DNA of 64,000 bases from Clostridia bacterium (GTDB taxonomy: Bacteria; Bacillota; Clostridia; Oscillospirales; Acutalibacteraceae). Each line of letters begins with the position of its first letter. Within the stretch, counting starts at the first letter, position 1. This document shows positions 7,151-60,780 of this stretch, in pieces. The position numbers and the translations under genes were made by a program. The DNA lies in the NCBI GenBank assembly GCA_017516745.1, contig JAFXBF010000011.1, positions 62,001-126,000 on the forward strand, read 5' to 3'. The notes beneath the pieces were generated by a model. That model worked only from the letters and a program-made list of their open reading frames with translations, made no database searches and had not been told where the DNA came from.

Positions 7151-7780
7151 ATGACAGACAAAGAAAAAATGCACAGCGGTGATGTTTATTACCCCAGCGG
7201 CGATGAAATAATGACAGAGCAGCTTGCCTGCCTTGATAAATTATACGATTTCAATATGACCCGTCCGAGTGAGCTTGACAAAAGAGCCGAGCTTCTCAAG
7301 GAGATGTTTGCCGAGATAGGGGAGGACTGCTATATTGAGCCGCCTCTGCACGCAAACTGGGCAGGAAAGCACGTGCATTTCGGCAAGGCGGTCTATGCCA
7401 ATTTCGGGCTTACGCTTGTTGACGATACGGATATTTTTGTCGGCGATAACACAATGTTTGCGCCGAATGTAGTTGTTGCAACCGCAGGTCACCCGATTAA
7501 CCCCGAGCTTCGAGCAAAGGCATATCAATACAATATGCCCGTACATATAGGCAAAAACTGCTGGCTGGGCGCAGGTGTGCTCGTTATGCCTGGCGTTACA
7601 ATCGGCGATAATACCGTTATCGGCGCAGGCAGCGTTGTAACAAAGGATATACCTGCAAACGTTGTTGCCTACGGCAACCCCTGCAGAGTAATCCGTGAAA
7701 TCGGCGAGCACGATAAGGTTTATTATTATAAGGACAGAAAAATTAATTACGAGGATTTGTTTGTCCCCGACAAACTGTAA
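7151..7780 (+). CDS. Maltose/galactoside O-acetyltransferase-type hexapeptide-repeat protein
   Basis: 209-aa cytoplasmic acetyltransferase of the LacA/Maa family, which transfers acetyl from acetyl-CoA to sugars. An N-terminal helical Mac segment (residues 1-60) precedes a left-handed parallel beta-helix with hexapeptide repeats (HIGKNCWLGAGVLVMPGVTIGDN, about 137-160) and the catalytic-region motif ATAGHP (His near 115). The C-terminal GNPCRVIREI is typical. It is divergent from the iolB-like operon and followed 18 bp later by a small conserved gene. Confidence 0.92.
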   Translation: MTDKEKMHSGDVYYPSGDEIMTEQLACLDKLYDFNMTRPSELDKRAELLKEMFAEIGEDCYIEPPLHANWAGKHVHFGKAVYANFGLTLVDDTDIFVGDNTMFAPNVVVATAGHPINPELRAKAYQYNMPVHIGKNCWLGAGVLVMPGVTIGDNTVIGAGSVVTKDIPANVVAYGNPCRVIREIGEHDKVYYYKDRKINYEDLFVPDKL

Positions 7781-58832: not shown

Positions 58833-58909
58833 GTCGGCGTTCTTTACCTTCGTGTTACTTTGTCATTACCTGTTTGTTACTTTACAGTTAATAATTTGTG
58901 AACAAACTG

Positions 58910-58939
58910 TTGACAGGGTGCATAAAAGTTATGTATAAT
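58910..58939 (+). promoter_or_regulatory. Strong promoter for micropeptide 1
   Basis: Consensus TTGACA at 58910-58915, 18-bp spacer, consensus TATAAT at 58934-58939. Confidence 0.85.
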
Positions 58940-58969
58940 TAAGCCAACAAAACAACGGAGGTGAAATTA

Positions 58970-59113
58970 ATGGATACTATTCTCGGTTTTGTACAGCAGC
59001 TTCTTGCTTACCTTAACGAGGGTGAGGCAGCAGACATCGTAGGTATGGTTAAGAATTCCGGCGTTGTTGAGGCTGTTATCAACTTCTTCAAGAGCATTAT
59101 TGAACTCTTCTAA
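58970..59113 (+). CDS. Leaderless amphipathic micropeptide 1, 47 aa
   Basis: Predicted peptide starts MDTILGFVQQLLAYL and ends VVEAVINFFKSIIELF. Two amphipathic helices flank a polar/Gly-Asn middle; net charge is about -4 and there is no signal peptide or Cys. The near-perfect ribosome site CGGAGGTGA, consensus promoter and own terminator argue for a real, highly expressed gene. Size, acidity, N-formyl-Met start without leader, and helix-NG-helix layout recall beta-type phenol-soluble modulins and leaderless bacteriocins; this is analogy, not demonstrated homology. Confidence 0.75.
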   Translation: MDTILGFVQQLLAYLNEGEAADIVGMVKNSGVVEAVINFFKSIIELF

Positions 59114-59151
59114 GAAAACGCTTCTCATTCACATTTTCATAAACCCTACAT

Positions 59152-59181
59152 AAAGACCTTTGTCATCGGACAGGGGTCTTT
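59152..59181 (+). terminator. Terminator after micropeptide 1
   Basis: AAAGACC...TGTC with GACA...GGTCTTT, then AATTTTCC. Confidence 0.75.
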
Positions 59182-59247
59182 AATTTTCCTTTGGGGAAGA
59201 ATATTAACGAAATATGAATAAATATGCGAGAAATATGTTGTTTTTGA

Positions 59248-59276
59248 TTGACAAAGTAAAAAAATAGGAATATACT
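59248..59276 (+). promoter_or_regulatory. Strong promoter for micropeptide 2
   Basis: TTGACA at 59248-59253, 17-bp spacer, TATACT at 59271-59276. Confidence 0.82.
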
Positions 59277-59314
59277 TTTTACATCAAGTATTGTAAACGG
59301 AGGTGAAATTTACA

Positions 59315-59461
59315 ATGGATGCTATCATGGAAGTAATCGGCAAGATCGACTTTGAGCAGATTATCGATGTCGTTAAGAAGGTAGTTGCTTGGATTCAGGA
59401 GTCCGGTATCATCGAGAAGGTTATCGATGTAGTTAAGGGTCTCATCGCTAACATTGCCTAA
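59315..59461 (+). CDS. Leaderless amphipathic micropeptide 2, 48 aa
   Basis: Starts MDAIMEVIGKIDFEQI and ends KVIDVVKGLIANIA. A heptad-like spacing of Ile/Val with Asp/Glu/Lys gives a strongly amphipathic helix broken by SG near residue 30; net charge about -3; no leader, no Cys. It contains a partial internal repeat (QIIDVVKKVVAWI and KVIDVVKGLIANI). Site CGGAGGTGA matches that of peptide 1, and both begin Met-Asp, so the two are probably paralogous or functionally paired. Own promoter and terminator. Confidence 0.75.
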   Translation: MDAIMEVIGKIDFEQIIDVVKKVVAWIQESGIIEKVIDVVKGLIANIA

Positions 59462-59480
59462 TTTTATTATTATGCAGATA

Positions 59481-59508
59481 AAAACTCTCGCTTAAATGCG
59501 GGAGTTTT
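59481..59508 (+). terminator. Terminator after micropeptide 2
   Basis: AAAACTCTCGC pairs with GCGGGAGTTTT, then TGTTTT. Confidence 0.85.
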
Positions 59509-59568
59509 TGTTTTATGCTCGTTTTGGTGTCAATAATAAAAGAAAACCGAAAAGGGTAGACAAGATAT

Positions 59569-60282
59569 ATGGACAAAGAAAAAATCAGGTTTAAAGTCGA
59601 TTATCTTCTGCTGGGCGAAAGGCAGTTTTCACGCCTTACGGTGCTTGTACCGCAGGTGCTCAAAATACTGTCCTTCGGGCTGATTGTGCTTGCAGTACCT
59701 CAGATAGATGTGTTGTATTATTCATTTCCCATGCTCGGTGTGCTTTATGTTCTTGCCGCAGTTTTGCTGCGGCTGTTGGTGTGGTGTGCGGAGCTTTTGC
59801 GTGACAGATGGTTTATGCACAGAATAACCGGTATGAAAATATCCGCTTCAAGTCTGCTTGCTCAATTTTCATTTGCGGATATTTTCCGTGCAGCCGTGCT
59901 TGCTATGATTTTGAGGGTGCGTTGTTGGGGCAGGGGACTGCTGTTTTTTACCGTGCCTGCGCTTTGCCTTGCGTTAAGCCTTGGCTTTATCAATTCGGGT
60001 GTCAGCAGTGCGGTGCTCGGTGCTCTCGTGTGCGGAAATATTCTGCTTTTTGCGGTCGCAGGGCTTTTCTGTTCGGCGGCTTTCTGTACAGTGCGCTATG
60101 CGGTAAAGCTTACAAGCCTTGAAAAATCCGGGCTGTTCAGCGCTGTAAAAGAAAAAATAACCGCTCTTGATTCAAGCGGCTTCAGGCTGCTTCGTTTGCG
60201 TGTGCTGTCCGCAGGCACATTTTCTTCGGAGAGAATAATGGCAGGGTTGCTTTATTCCCGGAATATGTTAATAAAGTGTTAA
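59569..60282 (+). CDS. Integral membrane protein of unknown function beside the micropeptides
   Basis: 237 aa. Four likely transmembrane helices (about 25-45, 48-72, 122-145, 148-172) between basic cytoplasmic ends (RFKVDYLLLGERQF; LRLRVLSAG). The ribosome site is weak (AAAGGG). I do not recognise a family. Lying between micropeptide 2 and a secreted small protein, it may serve export, immunity or sensing for these peptides; this is inference. The next gene's promoter is just after its end. Confidence 0.6.
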   Translation: MDKEKIRFKVDYLLLGERQFSRLTVLVPQVLKILSFGLIVLAVPQIDVLYYSFPMLGVLYVLAAVLLRLLVWCAELLRDRWFMHRITGMKISASSLLAQFSFADIFRAAVLAMILRVRCWGRGLLFFTVPALCLALSLGFINSGVSSAVLGALVCGNILLFAVAGLFCSAAFCTVRYAVKLTSLEKSGLFSAVKEKITALDSSGFRLLRLRVLSAGTFSSERIMAGLLYSRNMLIKC

Positions 60283-60290
60283 CGAAAGTG

Positions 60291-60319
60291 TTGACAATAT
60301 CTGCCTCGTGTGGTAAAAT
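60291..60319 (+). promoter_or_regulatory. Strong promoter for the secreted small protein
   Basis: TTGACA at 60291-60296, 17-bp spacer, TAAAAT at 60314-60319. Confidence 0.82.
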
Positions 60320-60369
60320 ACATTGCAAGCAAAAGTCACAAAATAACAAAATAAAGGAGAAAAATCAGA

Positions 60370-60735
60370 ATGAAAAAGTCTTTCAGAAAAGTACTTGCCG
60401 TTATTATGAGCGTAGTAATGCTTCTCGGCGCAACAAGCATCACAGCCTTCGCAGCAGATGAAAAGGTCGGTTCCTTCGATAACATTATAAAGGCATTTTC
60501 CGATTGGATTGACGCTATCACCAACTACGAAATGAGTGATTTTAACGACTTTGTAACAGCTATCCTCGGTCTCTTCGGCTTCAAGGGTGCATTCGAAGGC
60601 GTTCACAGCATTCCCTCTCTTGTTGACGAGTGGTTCGGCTGGCTTGGCGATCTCGGCGGCCTTTACGAAACTATTATCAACTTCCTCAGCACATCCGAGC
60701 TTCTTAACCTTATCAACGGCTTCCTTTCCAAGTAA
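60370..60735 (+). CDS. Small secreted amphipathic protein, 121 aa
   Basis: A clear signal peptide (KKSFRK, hydrophobic core, AFA cleavage near residue 29) releases an acidic mature protein of about 92 residues built of predicted amphipathic helices: NIIKAFSDWIDAI, FVTAILGLFGFKGAF, IPSLVDEWFGWLGDLGGLYETII and LLNLINGFL. No Cys and no known domain. Its composition (Ile/Leu/Phe/Gly/Asp/Asn) and helix style resemble the two leaderless peptides upstream, suggesting one system. AAAGGAG precedes the start. Confidence 0.75.
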   Translation: MKKSFRKVLAVIMSVVMLLGATSITAFAADEKVGSFDNIIKAFSDWIDAITNYEMSDFNDFVTAILGLFGFKGAFEGVHSIPSLVDEWFGWLGDLGGLYETIINFLSTSELLNLINGFLSK

Positions 60736-60752
60736 TTAATTCGTATTTTTTC

Positions 60753-60780
60753 AAAAACCCTCTTTCACAAGAGGGTTTTT
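60753..60780 (+). terminator. Terminator after the secreted small protein
   Basis: AAAAACCCTCTT pairs with AAGAGGGTTTTT. Confidence 0.9.

Follow-up and report, generated by a model that had tools for sequence, protein, structure and literature searches.

Our findings describe a four-gene locus, coding for two leaderless peptides (pep1, pep2), a membrane protein (MP) and a small, predicted secreted protein (SP), that is kept throughout a gut clostridial genus seen in ruminant and horse samples and looks like a new peptide system because none of its four proteins reaches a known-family cut-off. The explanation we prefer, and put forward tentatively, is an abundant core-genome set of surfactant-like peptides resembling beta-type phenol-soluble modulins (PSMs), with MP as export or self-protection partner, in which the peptides would be exported and active outside.

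Locus organization and predicted expression

Genes, conservation, promoters and codon usage were all computed, as were three relations (pep1 with pep2, MP with DUF975, SP with a predicted wall-anchored protein) and an SP form without signal peptide. The four genes lie on the + strand at positions 58910-60780 of the window (the whole 64-kb stretch of DNA analysed), with these features:

58910..58939, + strand: pep1 promoter TTGACA-18-TATAAT, 12/12 (scan)
58957..58964, + strand: pep1 ribosome site GGAGGTGA (sequence)
58970..59113, + strand: pep1 gene for an acidic, amphipathic 47-aa peptide with no leader (ORF, profile matches, dN/dS)
59151..59182, + strand: terminator-like hairpin 3' of pep1 (scan)
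59248..59276, + strand: pep2 promoter TTGACA-17-TATACT, 11/12 (scan)
59299..59306, + strand: pep2 ribosome site GGAGGTGA (sequence)
59315..59461, + strand: pep2 gene for an acidic, amphipathic 48-aa peptide with no leader, probably paralogous to pep1 (ORF, search, profiles)
59480..59509, + strand: hairpin 3' of pep2 with A/T-rich outer stem, probable terminator (by eye; absent from the scan list)
59569..60282, + strand: MP gene for a polytopic membrane protein of 237 aa, remotely related to DUF975 (ORF, profiles, hydrophobicity)
60291..60319, + strand: SP promoter TTGACA-17-TAAAAT, 11/12 (scan)
60370..60735, + strand: SP gene, predicted 121-aa small secreted protein (ORF, profiles, hydrophobicity)
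60753..60780, + strand: terminator-like hairpin 3' of SP (scan)

In line with the sequence-only reading, the tiny genes each have their own near-consensus TTGACA promoter: three of the 11 sites scoring at least 11/12 on both strands of the whole window fall in this locus, and pep1 owns the sole 12/12 site. That two genes share the same strong ribosome site and that a terminator follows each tiny gene had also been claimed, and both are supported, the first by a 15-nt block (AACGGAGGTGAAATT) that pep1 and pep2 have in identical form at their ribosome sites, the second by hairpins found after pep1 and SP by scan and after pep2 by eye. Promoters and ribosome sites are present in relatives as well (by eye), an Rfam search of the whole window gave no match, and a candidate common motif was noticed by eye 5' of the -35 box. 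The start codons of both peptide genes sit directly behind promoter and ribosome site, leaving no leader; while the ORF list starts them at GTG codons located 3 (pep1) and 4 (pep2) codons upstream, we preferred the ATG behind the ribosome site.

Codon adaptation to ribosomal genes reaches 0.788 for pep1, 0.777 for pep2 and 0.752 for mature SP, each above 53 of the 54 long ORFs of the window; MP stands at 0.307 and none of these 54 is lower. Because ribosomal-gene-like codon usage goes together with near-consensus promoters, the peptides and SP are predicted to be abundant, so that pep1, pep2 and SP appear to be made in large amounts and MP to be scarce.

Conservation across the genus

Conserved synteny in gut Clostridia, which the sequence-only reading had named as a check, was found: all four genes occur in 11/11 genomes of the genus (pep1 and MP counted by profile, pep2 and SP through searches or direct reading) and their order is retained on one stretch in 10/11, the remaining genome (G004) having pep1-pep2 and MP-SP on different contigs. 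The position of the locus downstream of glyA is fixed across the genus; G001, G003 and G010 have one additional gene separating glyA from pep1, and in G007 and G009 a lipase-like gene separates MP from SP. The locus proteins have diverged to 25-81% identity, and their divergence far outpaces that of glyA and the adjoining fucosidase-like gene, with MP at 25-33% identity (six genomes) versus 92-94% for glyA (five genomes).

Outside the genus, five further genera in the family sample have single pep1 relatives of 36-57 aa, which adjoin seemingly ordinary metabolic genes (by eye). With pep2 as single query, 22 of 97 relatives match at E up to 1; eight of these are in the genus, including G001 only at E 0.008, and the remaining 14, with E values of 0.017 and above, were not accepted as relatives. 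Also set aside were the 30/250 matches of a first pep1 profile (E up to 0.1), mostly short pieces of longer frames, and 30 stretches of viral contigs fitting the pattern sought, none of which was confirmed. No plasmids carrying MP were found.

Could the four genes be independent neighbours without a joint function, in which a patchy small peptide has doubled and, by chance, stayed beside a DUF975-like protein and a small secreted one? The separate promoters, the pep relatives that stand alone in other genera, the split in G004 and the lipase-like gene in G007 and G009 would agree with this. We nevertheless consider it unlikely, since the order survives in 10/11 genomes despite such divergence and inserted genes, and G004 still pairs pep1 with pep2 and MP with SP.

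Properties of pep1 and pep2

The description of two leaderless, acidic, Cys-free and amphipathic peptides of 47 and 48 aa stands, with the rider that their amphipathicity over shuffles is modest. None of the 30 pep1/pep2-type peptides read contains Cys, and net charge in 29 of them (pep2 of G001 being left out) runs from -6 to +2, with 24 negative, one zero and four positive. The maximum moment compared with shuffles gave p 0.003-0.048 for 8/8 pep1 and p 0.006-0.034 for 6/7 pep2, the seventh being at 0.117; the strongest amphipathic window is C-terminal in 5/8 and N-terminal in 3/8 pep1, and central (residue 13 on) in 7/7 pep2. A structure model of pep1 has three helices, among them helix 32-46, at a mean pLDDT of 72 and a pTM of only 0.35, and a Foldseek fold search with it returned no PDB match.

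The dN/dS values of pep1 (0 to 0.26 over 10 genome pairs) indicate purifying selection, and those of pep2, up to 0.80 between clades, indicate weak constraint there. The two are probably paralogues, profile comparison relating them at 90% with genus profiles but at 25% and 56% with widened ones.

Type I toxins are small hydrophobic membrane-spanning peptides; pep1 and pep2 of the window, with no 19-residue hydrophobic window above 1.6 and hence no transmembrane segment, were rejected as such. AgrD-type peptides, for their part, need Cys for a (thio)lactone ring, and because Cys is missing from all 30 peptides, an AgrD-type thiolactone signal was likewise dismissed. Peptide signalling more generally, with the peptides as pheromones and MP as processing or sensing protein, takes up the pairing of small peptides with a membrane protein and strikes us as highly improbable: besides the lack of Cys, pep1 is conserved over its full length rather than in a short core, predicted expression is very high for a signal, and none of the four genes codes for a kinase or regulator.

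MP and SP and their relatives

A four-helix membrane protein had been placed between peptides and secreted protein, which agrees with an MP of at least four hydrophobic segments. By profile comparison MP is a remote, shortened relative of DUF975, a domain of unknown function in Pfam's description: hhalign aligned it over 217 columns (probability 95.6, E 1.3e-8 in a single comparison) with DUF975-type proteins of the same bacterial family, an alignment of four proteins: one exceeds the Pfam cut-off (an added neighbour gene that did not match MP itself), a second falls 0.1 bit short of it, a third is clearly below and the fourth has no match. At E up to 1 the Pfam DUF975 model (PF06161) itself matches 0/8 MPs scanned, a set comprising all but those of G002, G007 and G009, and MP lacks the final hydrophobic segment that the longer DUF975-type relatives have. 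One MP member has a sub-threshold match to Phage_holin_4_2 (E 0.025).

Read by eye, SP has a signal peptide spanning roughly residues 1-29, with its hydrophobic segment at 8-26; the mature part is 92 aa long and has a net charge of -10. The signal peptide is present in eight genomes and entirely missing from SP in three of the genus's 11, with a promoter immediately upstream of the signal-less form; these three make up one group in the MP tree (100/99), and since the tree is compatible with that group branching first or later, either state of SP may be the older. A profile including the signal peptide matched in 112/250 family genomes, most listed matches covering the signal-peptide end only, and the mature-SP profile had 3/200 matches, all in this genus. 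AlphaFold gives SP five helices (mean pLDDT 53.8, pTM 0.35). The view that SP is built of helices like those of the peptides did not survive profile comparison, which found no relation to pep1 or pep2 (hhalign 0.3-1.5%).

Instead, hhalign relates the SP domain to a predicted wall-anchored protein (probability 92.9, E 3.7e-7, single comparison) whose own domain occurs in 11/11 genus genomes. This protein shares its helical domain with SP in the same genomes and differs from it by acidic linkers, a gene elsewhere in the chromosome and an anchor pattern at the C-terminus, of PDTG type or closely similar (7/11 genomes, by eye); anchor models stayed sub-threshold for the two genus proteins scanned. 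Pep2 matches its first helices at 71% (A2) and 62% (A9), a weak likeness over 27 helical residues for which composition may suffice.

Discussion

Translation level, export, membrane activity and the role of MP are what we infer in our proposal of a surfactant-like set. Accordingly worded as a model, pep1 and pep2 would be made directly in mature form and at a high predicted level, adopt short amphipathic helices at a membrane or interface, and work outside or at the cell surface as beta-type PSMs do; SP, with its Sec signal peptide in this clade, may be a third helical surface component, and the scarce DUF975-like MP a dedicated partner that exports the peptides or shields the maker's membrane. 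That SP has no signal peptide in three genomes would be consistent with export by a route needing no signal, and could equally mean a cytoplasmic role there. Counted against the surfactant-like set are the lack of an ABC exporter inside the locus and the unknown function of DUF975, the lack of a PSM model at cut-off or of any beta-type PSM model listed, the weak constraint on pep2 and the drop of the pep1-pep2 relation with widened profiles, an amphipathic stretch that is C-terminal in 5/8 pep1 only and central in the seven pep2, the split contigs of G004 and the missing PDB fold match of the pep1 model.

Alternatively, the peptides may stay inside as abundant amphipathic proteins of the cytosol or the inner membrane face (stress, membrane curvature, envelope housekeeping), with MP as anchor or receptor and SP as a separate envelope neighbour. 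Their lack of a leader, the fixed site downstream of glyA, extra gene in three genomes included, and the metabolic-looking neighbours of lone relatives in other genera would all suit this, and the signal-less SP would then simply be intracellular. Yet since SP carries a signal peptide in eight genomes and has a predicted wall-anchored relative, at least one partner probably works outside, and together with the much faster divergence of the locus than of glyA and the fucosidase-like gene this makes an intracellular role somewhat unlikely.

Going further than the surfactant-like set, one may envisage that the DUF975-like MP, without an ABC exporter, exports abundant helical peptides plus the SP domain in three genomes (the other eight using a Sec signal), with the helices coating the surface or forming a surfactant layer, a scenario we regard as very doubtful.

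Proteins as short as pep1 and pep2 are often missing from annotation, and these two match no family at cut-off in the libraries searched; yet should their expression live up to their codon usage and promoters, they would rank among the more abundant proteins in a gut lineage. An SP domain with and without signal peptide at the same locus offers a natural experiment on how leaderless peptides exit. Such exit is treated as poorly understood in PMC6131525. Our analysis adds to the sequence-only reading the DUF975-likeness of MP, the occurrence of the SP domain in a predicted wall-anchored protein as well, and the signal-less SP form.

Comparison with known systems

Pfam, NCBIfam, PHROGs and PADLOC gave nothing at curated cut-off for the four proteins, and searching PDB sequences with four profiles yielded no hit below E 0.2. 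Sub-threshold matches were seen for pep2 (PMBR, E 0.011; phrog_33068, of unknown function, E 0.0016; Antimicrobial20, a 13-position antibiotic-peptide model, E 0.31) and SP (DUF3852, E 0.0094). The literature held no description of a pep1-pep2-MP-SP locus as far as the beginnings of abstracts tell, so the claim that no described system has this make-up holds to that extent.

Leaderless bacteriocins (enterocin 7/L50 and aureocin A53 types), to which pep1 and pep2 had been likened, resemble them in being leaderless, helical, of similar size and encoded as adjacent related peptides. A two- or three-peptide bacteriocin with MP as immunity protein would account for two adjacent, probably paralogous leaderless peptides and for a fast-evolving MP with poor codon usage, as might be expected of immunity; multi-peptide members exist (PMC6131525). 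Most leaderless bacteriocins, however, are highly cationic (PMC6131525), while 24/29 of our peptides are net negative and the highest is +2. Hence a bacteriocin is less likely than a surfactant-like set and, to our mind, quite unlikely: there is no ABC exporter within the locus, the peptides occur in every genus genome rather than sporadically, MP lies apart from them in G004, and the Pfam and NCBIfam scans list no bacteriocin family for the peptides scanned, the nearest being the sub-threshold Antimicrobial20 match of pep2. Membership of this group is not supported.

Much the same goes for PSMs, where size and leaderlessness agree, amphipathicity agrees in part and family membership is not supported, the best PSM-alpha scores (17.8 versus a cut-off of 23 bits for Pfam PSMalpha, 23.6 versus 30 for NCBIfam PSM_alpha_1_2) falling on C-terminal stretches of the peptides, with no beta-type PSM model among the matches listed in these scans. 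Like pep1 and pep2, staphylococcal beta-type PSMs are about 45 aa long, have no signal peptide, form amphipathic helices (as predicted for our peptides) and commonly belong to the core genome (PMC5442197). Unlike them, the peptides described here reach no PSM model cut-off, have no ABC exporter among the four genes and come, in gut Clostridia, alongside a DUF975-like membrane protein and a predicted secreted helical protein.

Genomic setting and conservation

Re-reading of the open frames returned the four plus-strand genes that the sequence-only reading had described, and its coordinates and description are right in all essentials. The products are two leaderless small peptides (pep1, pep2), a polytopic membrane protein (MP) and a small secreted helical protein (SP), with a gene that we take to be glyA on the left side and a presumably alpha-L-fucosidase-like gene on the right, both named from their sequence.

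58910-60780, plus strand: four-gene locus; pep1 47 aa, pep2 48 aa, MP 237 aa, SP 121 aa with signal peptide

The genome containing the window measures 2.89 Mb; its relatives (10 loci, named collection) are metagenome-assembled Clostridia, one filed under Oscillospiraceae and one under Ruminococcaceae, with goat, sheep, water deer and horse as gut sources where stated. Conserved synteny among relatives, which had been proposed as a check, is borne out: all four genes occur in the 11 genomes of the genus, and in ten the order pep1-pep2-MP-SP is kept on a single stretch. Profiles of pep1 and MP match in 11/11, pep2 was found in eight by search and in the remaining three by reading, and SP in all 11 by reading. 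In genome G004, the pep1-pep2 and MP-SP pairs lie on separate contigs, each keeping its usual outer neighbour. In two of the ten one-stretch genomes (G009, G007), MP and SP are separated by a gene on the opposite strand; Pfam identifies it as a lipase in G009 (Lip_C, E 1.9e-59), and its counterpart in G007 looks similar by eye.

L138:4704-5963 and L139:5593-6873 (loci in related genomes), minus strand: lipase-like gene between MP and SP, assigned to Lip_C by Pfam in G009

Since its dN/dS is 0 to 0.26 over ten genome pairs, pep1 is a translated and clearly constrained gene; pep2, at 0.05 to 0.80 (ten pairs), is less constrained between clades. The ratio is 0.17 to 0.32 for SP (ten pairs) and 0.21 to 0.51 for MP in the seven of ten pairs that were computable. 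Pep1 keeps 42-81% identity to the window copy, pep2 25-60% and mature SP 36-56% (six genomes each); MP retains 25-33% in six more distant genomes, compared with GlyA at 92-94% (five genomes) and the fucosidase-like protein at 88-93% (three). MP thus reads as a fast-diverging protein.

Expression signals and codon usage

Counted as matched positions of the TTGACA and TATAAT hexamers, the sole 12/12 sigma-A-type promoter in the window is that of pep1, and with those of pep2 and SP (11/12) it makes up three of the 11 sites at 11/12 or better on both strands of the 64 kb. By eye, pep1 in 11/11 genomes and 12/12 SP genes are preceded by promoter hexamers and a ribosome site of AGGAG type, and eight genomes show a separate promoter for pep2; in the other three (G002, G009, G007), pep2 sits close behind pep1, with which it is probably co-transcribed. 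A GTTAATAA / GTGAACAAA-like stretch, perhaps an UP element or the site of a regulator, recurs immediately 5' of the -35 box in several pep1 and SP promoters (window 58880-58930 and relatives).

Codon adaptation was scored with a table from 21 genes of the window genome's ribosomal protein cluster (one located by Pfam match, the rest recognised by eye) and compared with 54 long window ORFs picked mechanically by length. Pep1 (0.788), pep2 (0.777) and mature SP (0.752) each exceed 53 of the 54, albeit short genes scatter more: among 3240 random 47-codon stretches, 2.8% score as high as pep1 and 3.3% as high as pep2. For MP the value is 0.307, and none of the 54 is lower. The pattern suggests abundant small proteins and one scarce membrane protein, with abundance predicted from promoters and codon usage.

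The peptides and their relatives

Pep1 and pep2 are probably paralogues: their genus profiles align by hhalign with probability 90 (E 1.5e-6, one comparison), and with only 25% and 56% once widened by more distant members. Cys is absent from all 30 peptides read. Structure prediction, likewise proposed earlier, gave pep1 as three helices (AlphaFold; residues 2-16, 20-30, 32-46), which at a mean pLDDT of 72.3 and pTM of 0.35 are plausible, with no reliable packing; a fold search of the PDB with this model returned no match. A 32-nt direct repeat, 75% identical, links the ends of pep1 (59059-59090) and SP (60657-60688); it probably reflects amphipathic-helix codons and may point to a common origin of that helix.

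Among 250 genomes of the family, the widened pep1 profile has matches in 12 (E up to 0.01). Two were taken as chance (short matches within longer frames), leaving relatives in ten genomes and 6/135 genera, the genus of the window included. Across the order (394 genomes), a further widened profile gave four matches at E up to 0.001, three from the genus and one of 18 residues in a longer frame. Outside the genus, the relatives (eight read) are single genes of 35-57 aa, by eye also with promoter-like and ribosome sites, so it is the lone short peptide that has the wider, patchy distribution; a second peptide, like MP and SP as partners, was seen in this genus only. In G013, from another genus, a 45-aa pep1 relative (L071:5031-5168) is followed by a 228-aa protein (L071:5539-6225) with a signal-peptide-like start and hydrophobic end, which makes a further pairing of a small peptide with a putative secreted protein.

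One SP domain in three forms

In a 200-genome family sample, the mature SP domain was not found outside the genus. The genomes of the genus encode a second small protein with a related helical domain (hhalign probability 92.9; E 3.7e-7 for one comparison), which is present in 11/11 (L146-L157; contig C17 in the window genome) and adjoined in five of seven loci by a presumably ctsR-like gene. The seven proteins of this kind that were read over their whole length all show a signal peptide and, by eye, an anchor pattern of PDTG type, or one close to it, at the C-terminus; because anchor models stayed below threshold for the two scanned, we treat the wall anchor as predicted.

An unexpected finding was an SP homologue without signal peptide (89-93 aa) in G002, G009 and G007, three genomes that group together in the MP tree.

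L139:7061-7342 and 7489-7770: tandem pair of signal-less SP copies in G007, each behind a promoter of its own as judged by eye

Their start codon lies directly behind promoter and ribosome site, and in G002 the open frame starts merely ten codons upstream. The copies are constrained, as pS is 0.51 and pN 0.24 between G002 and G009. We thus see one domain in three forms: behind a Sec signal, free without signal, and as part of a protein with a predicted wall anchor. Of the three genomes with signal-less SP, two have a secreted lipase-like gene separating MP from SP; beside surfactant-like peptides, this is perhaps no accident.

To our minds, pep1 and pep2 may have a surfactant-like or surface-coating role close to that of beta-type phenol-soluble modulins (PSMs), and MP, scarce and fast-evolving, would be their export or self-protection partner. 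Such a role fits predicted abundance, leaderless amphipathic helices, genus-wide presence and a helical partner probably at the surface. The signal-less SP would provide the best indirect support for export, and a new export route is conceivable, if improbable. The same SP form may, however, also be read as a shift to a cytoplasmic role, in keeping with peptides that are not exported. Because it can be taken both ways and we infer export, we put forward the surfactant-like set tentatively and regard peptides that stay inside as only somewhat less likely.

A distant relative of MP

Weak MP matches at E up to 0.01 occurred in nine of 250 family genomes, four of these being the genus itself, and it is from those in other genera that DUF975 (Pfam PF06161, membrane proteins) was identified as a relative. 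Of three such proteins, one scored 0.1 bit below the Pfam DUF975 cut-off, one clearly below and one without match, and a gene adjoining one of them scored well above it. The alignment of the MP profile with these four spans 217 columns (hhalign probability 95.6; E 1.3e-8 for one comparison). The Pfam model itself matched none of eight MP members scanned, and MP lacks the final hydrophobic segment seen in the longer DUF975-type relatives.

Comparison with known systems

The four proteins scored below cut-off with every Pfam and NCBIfam model, PADLOC gave nothing, the PHROGs matches were weak and to families without an assigned function, and a PDB sequence search gave nothing better than E 0.2; a literature search found no description of such a system among the abstracts listed. 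Closest among family models is PSM-alpha (23.6 bits, cut-off 30), which we read as shared physics of amphipathic helices, not descent. The likeness to beta-type PSMs or leaderless bacteriocins drawn by the sequence-only reading stands for size and the lack of a leader, and falters in its bacteriocin half. Most leaderless bacteriocins are highly cationic (PMC6131525), whereas net charge here, computed for 29 of the 30 peptides, is negative in 24, zero in one and positive in four (range -6 to +2); this, and the presence of the locus throughout the genus, makes a bacteriocin the less likely reading. Beta-type PSMs, as described in PMC5442197, resemble pep1 and pep2 in size, in having no signal peptide and in core-genome coding. 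We file the locus under leaderless amphipathic peptide loci, a known kind, as a new variety.
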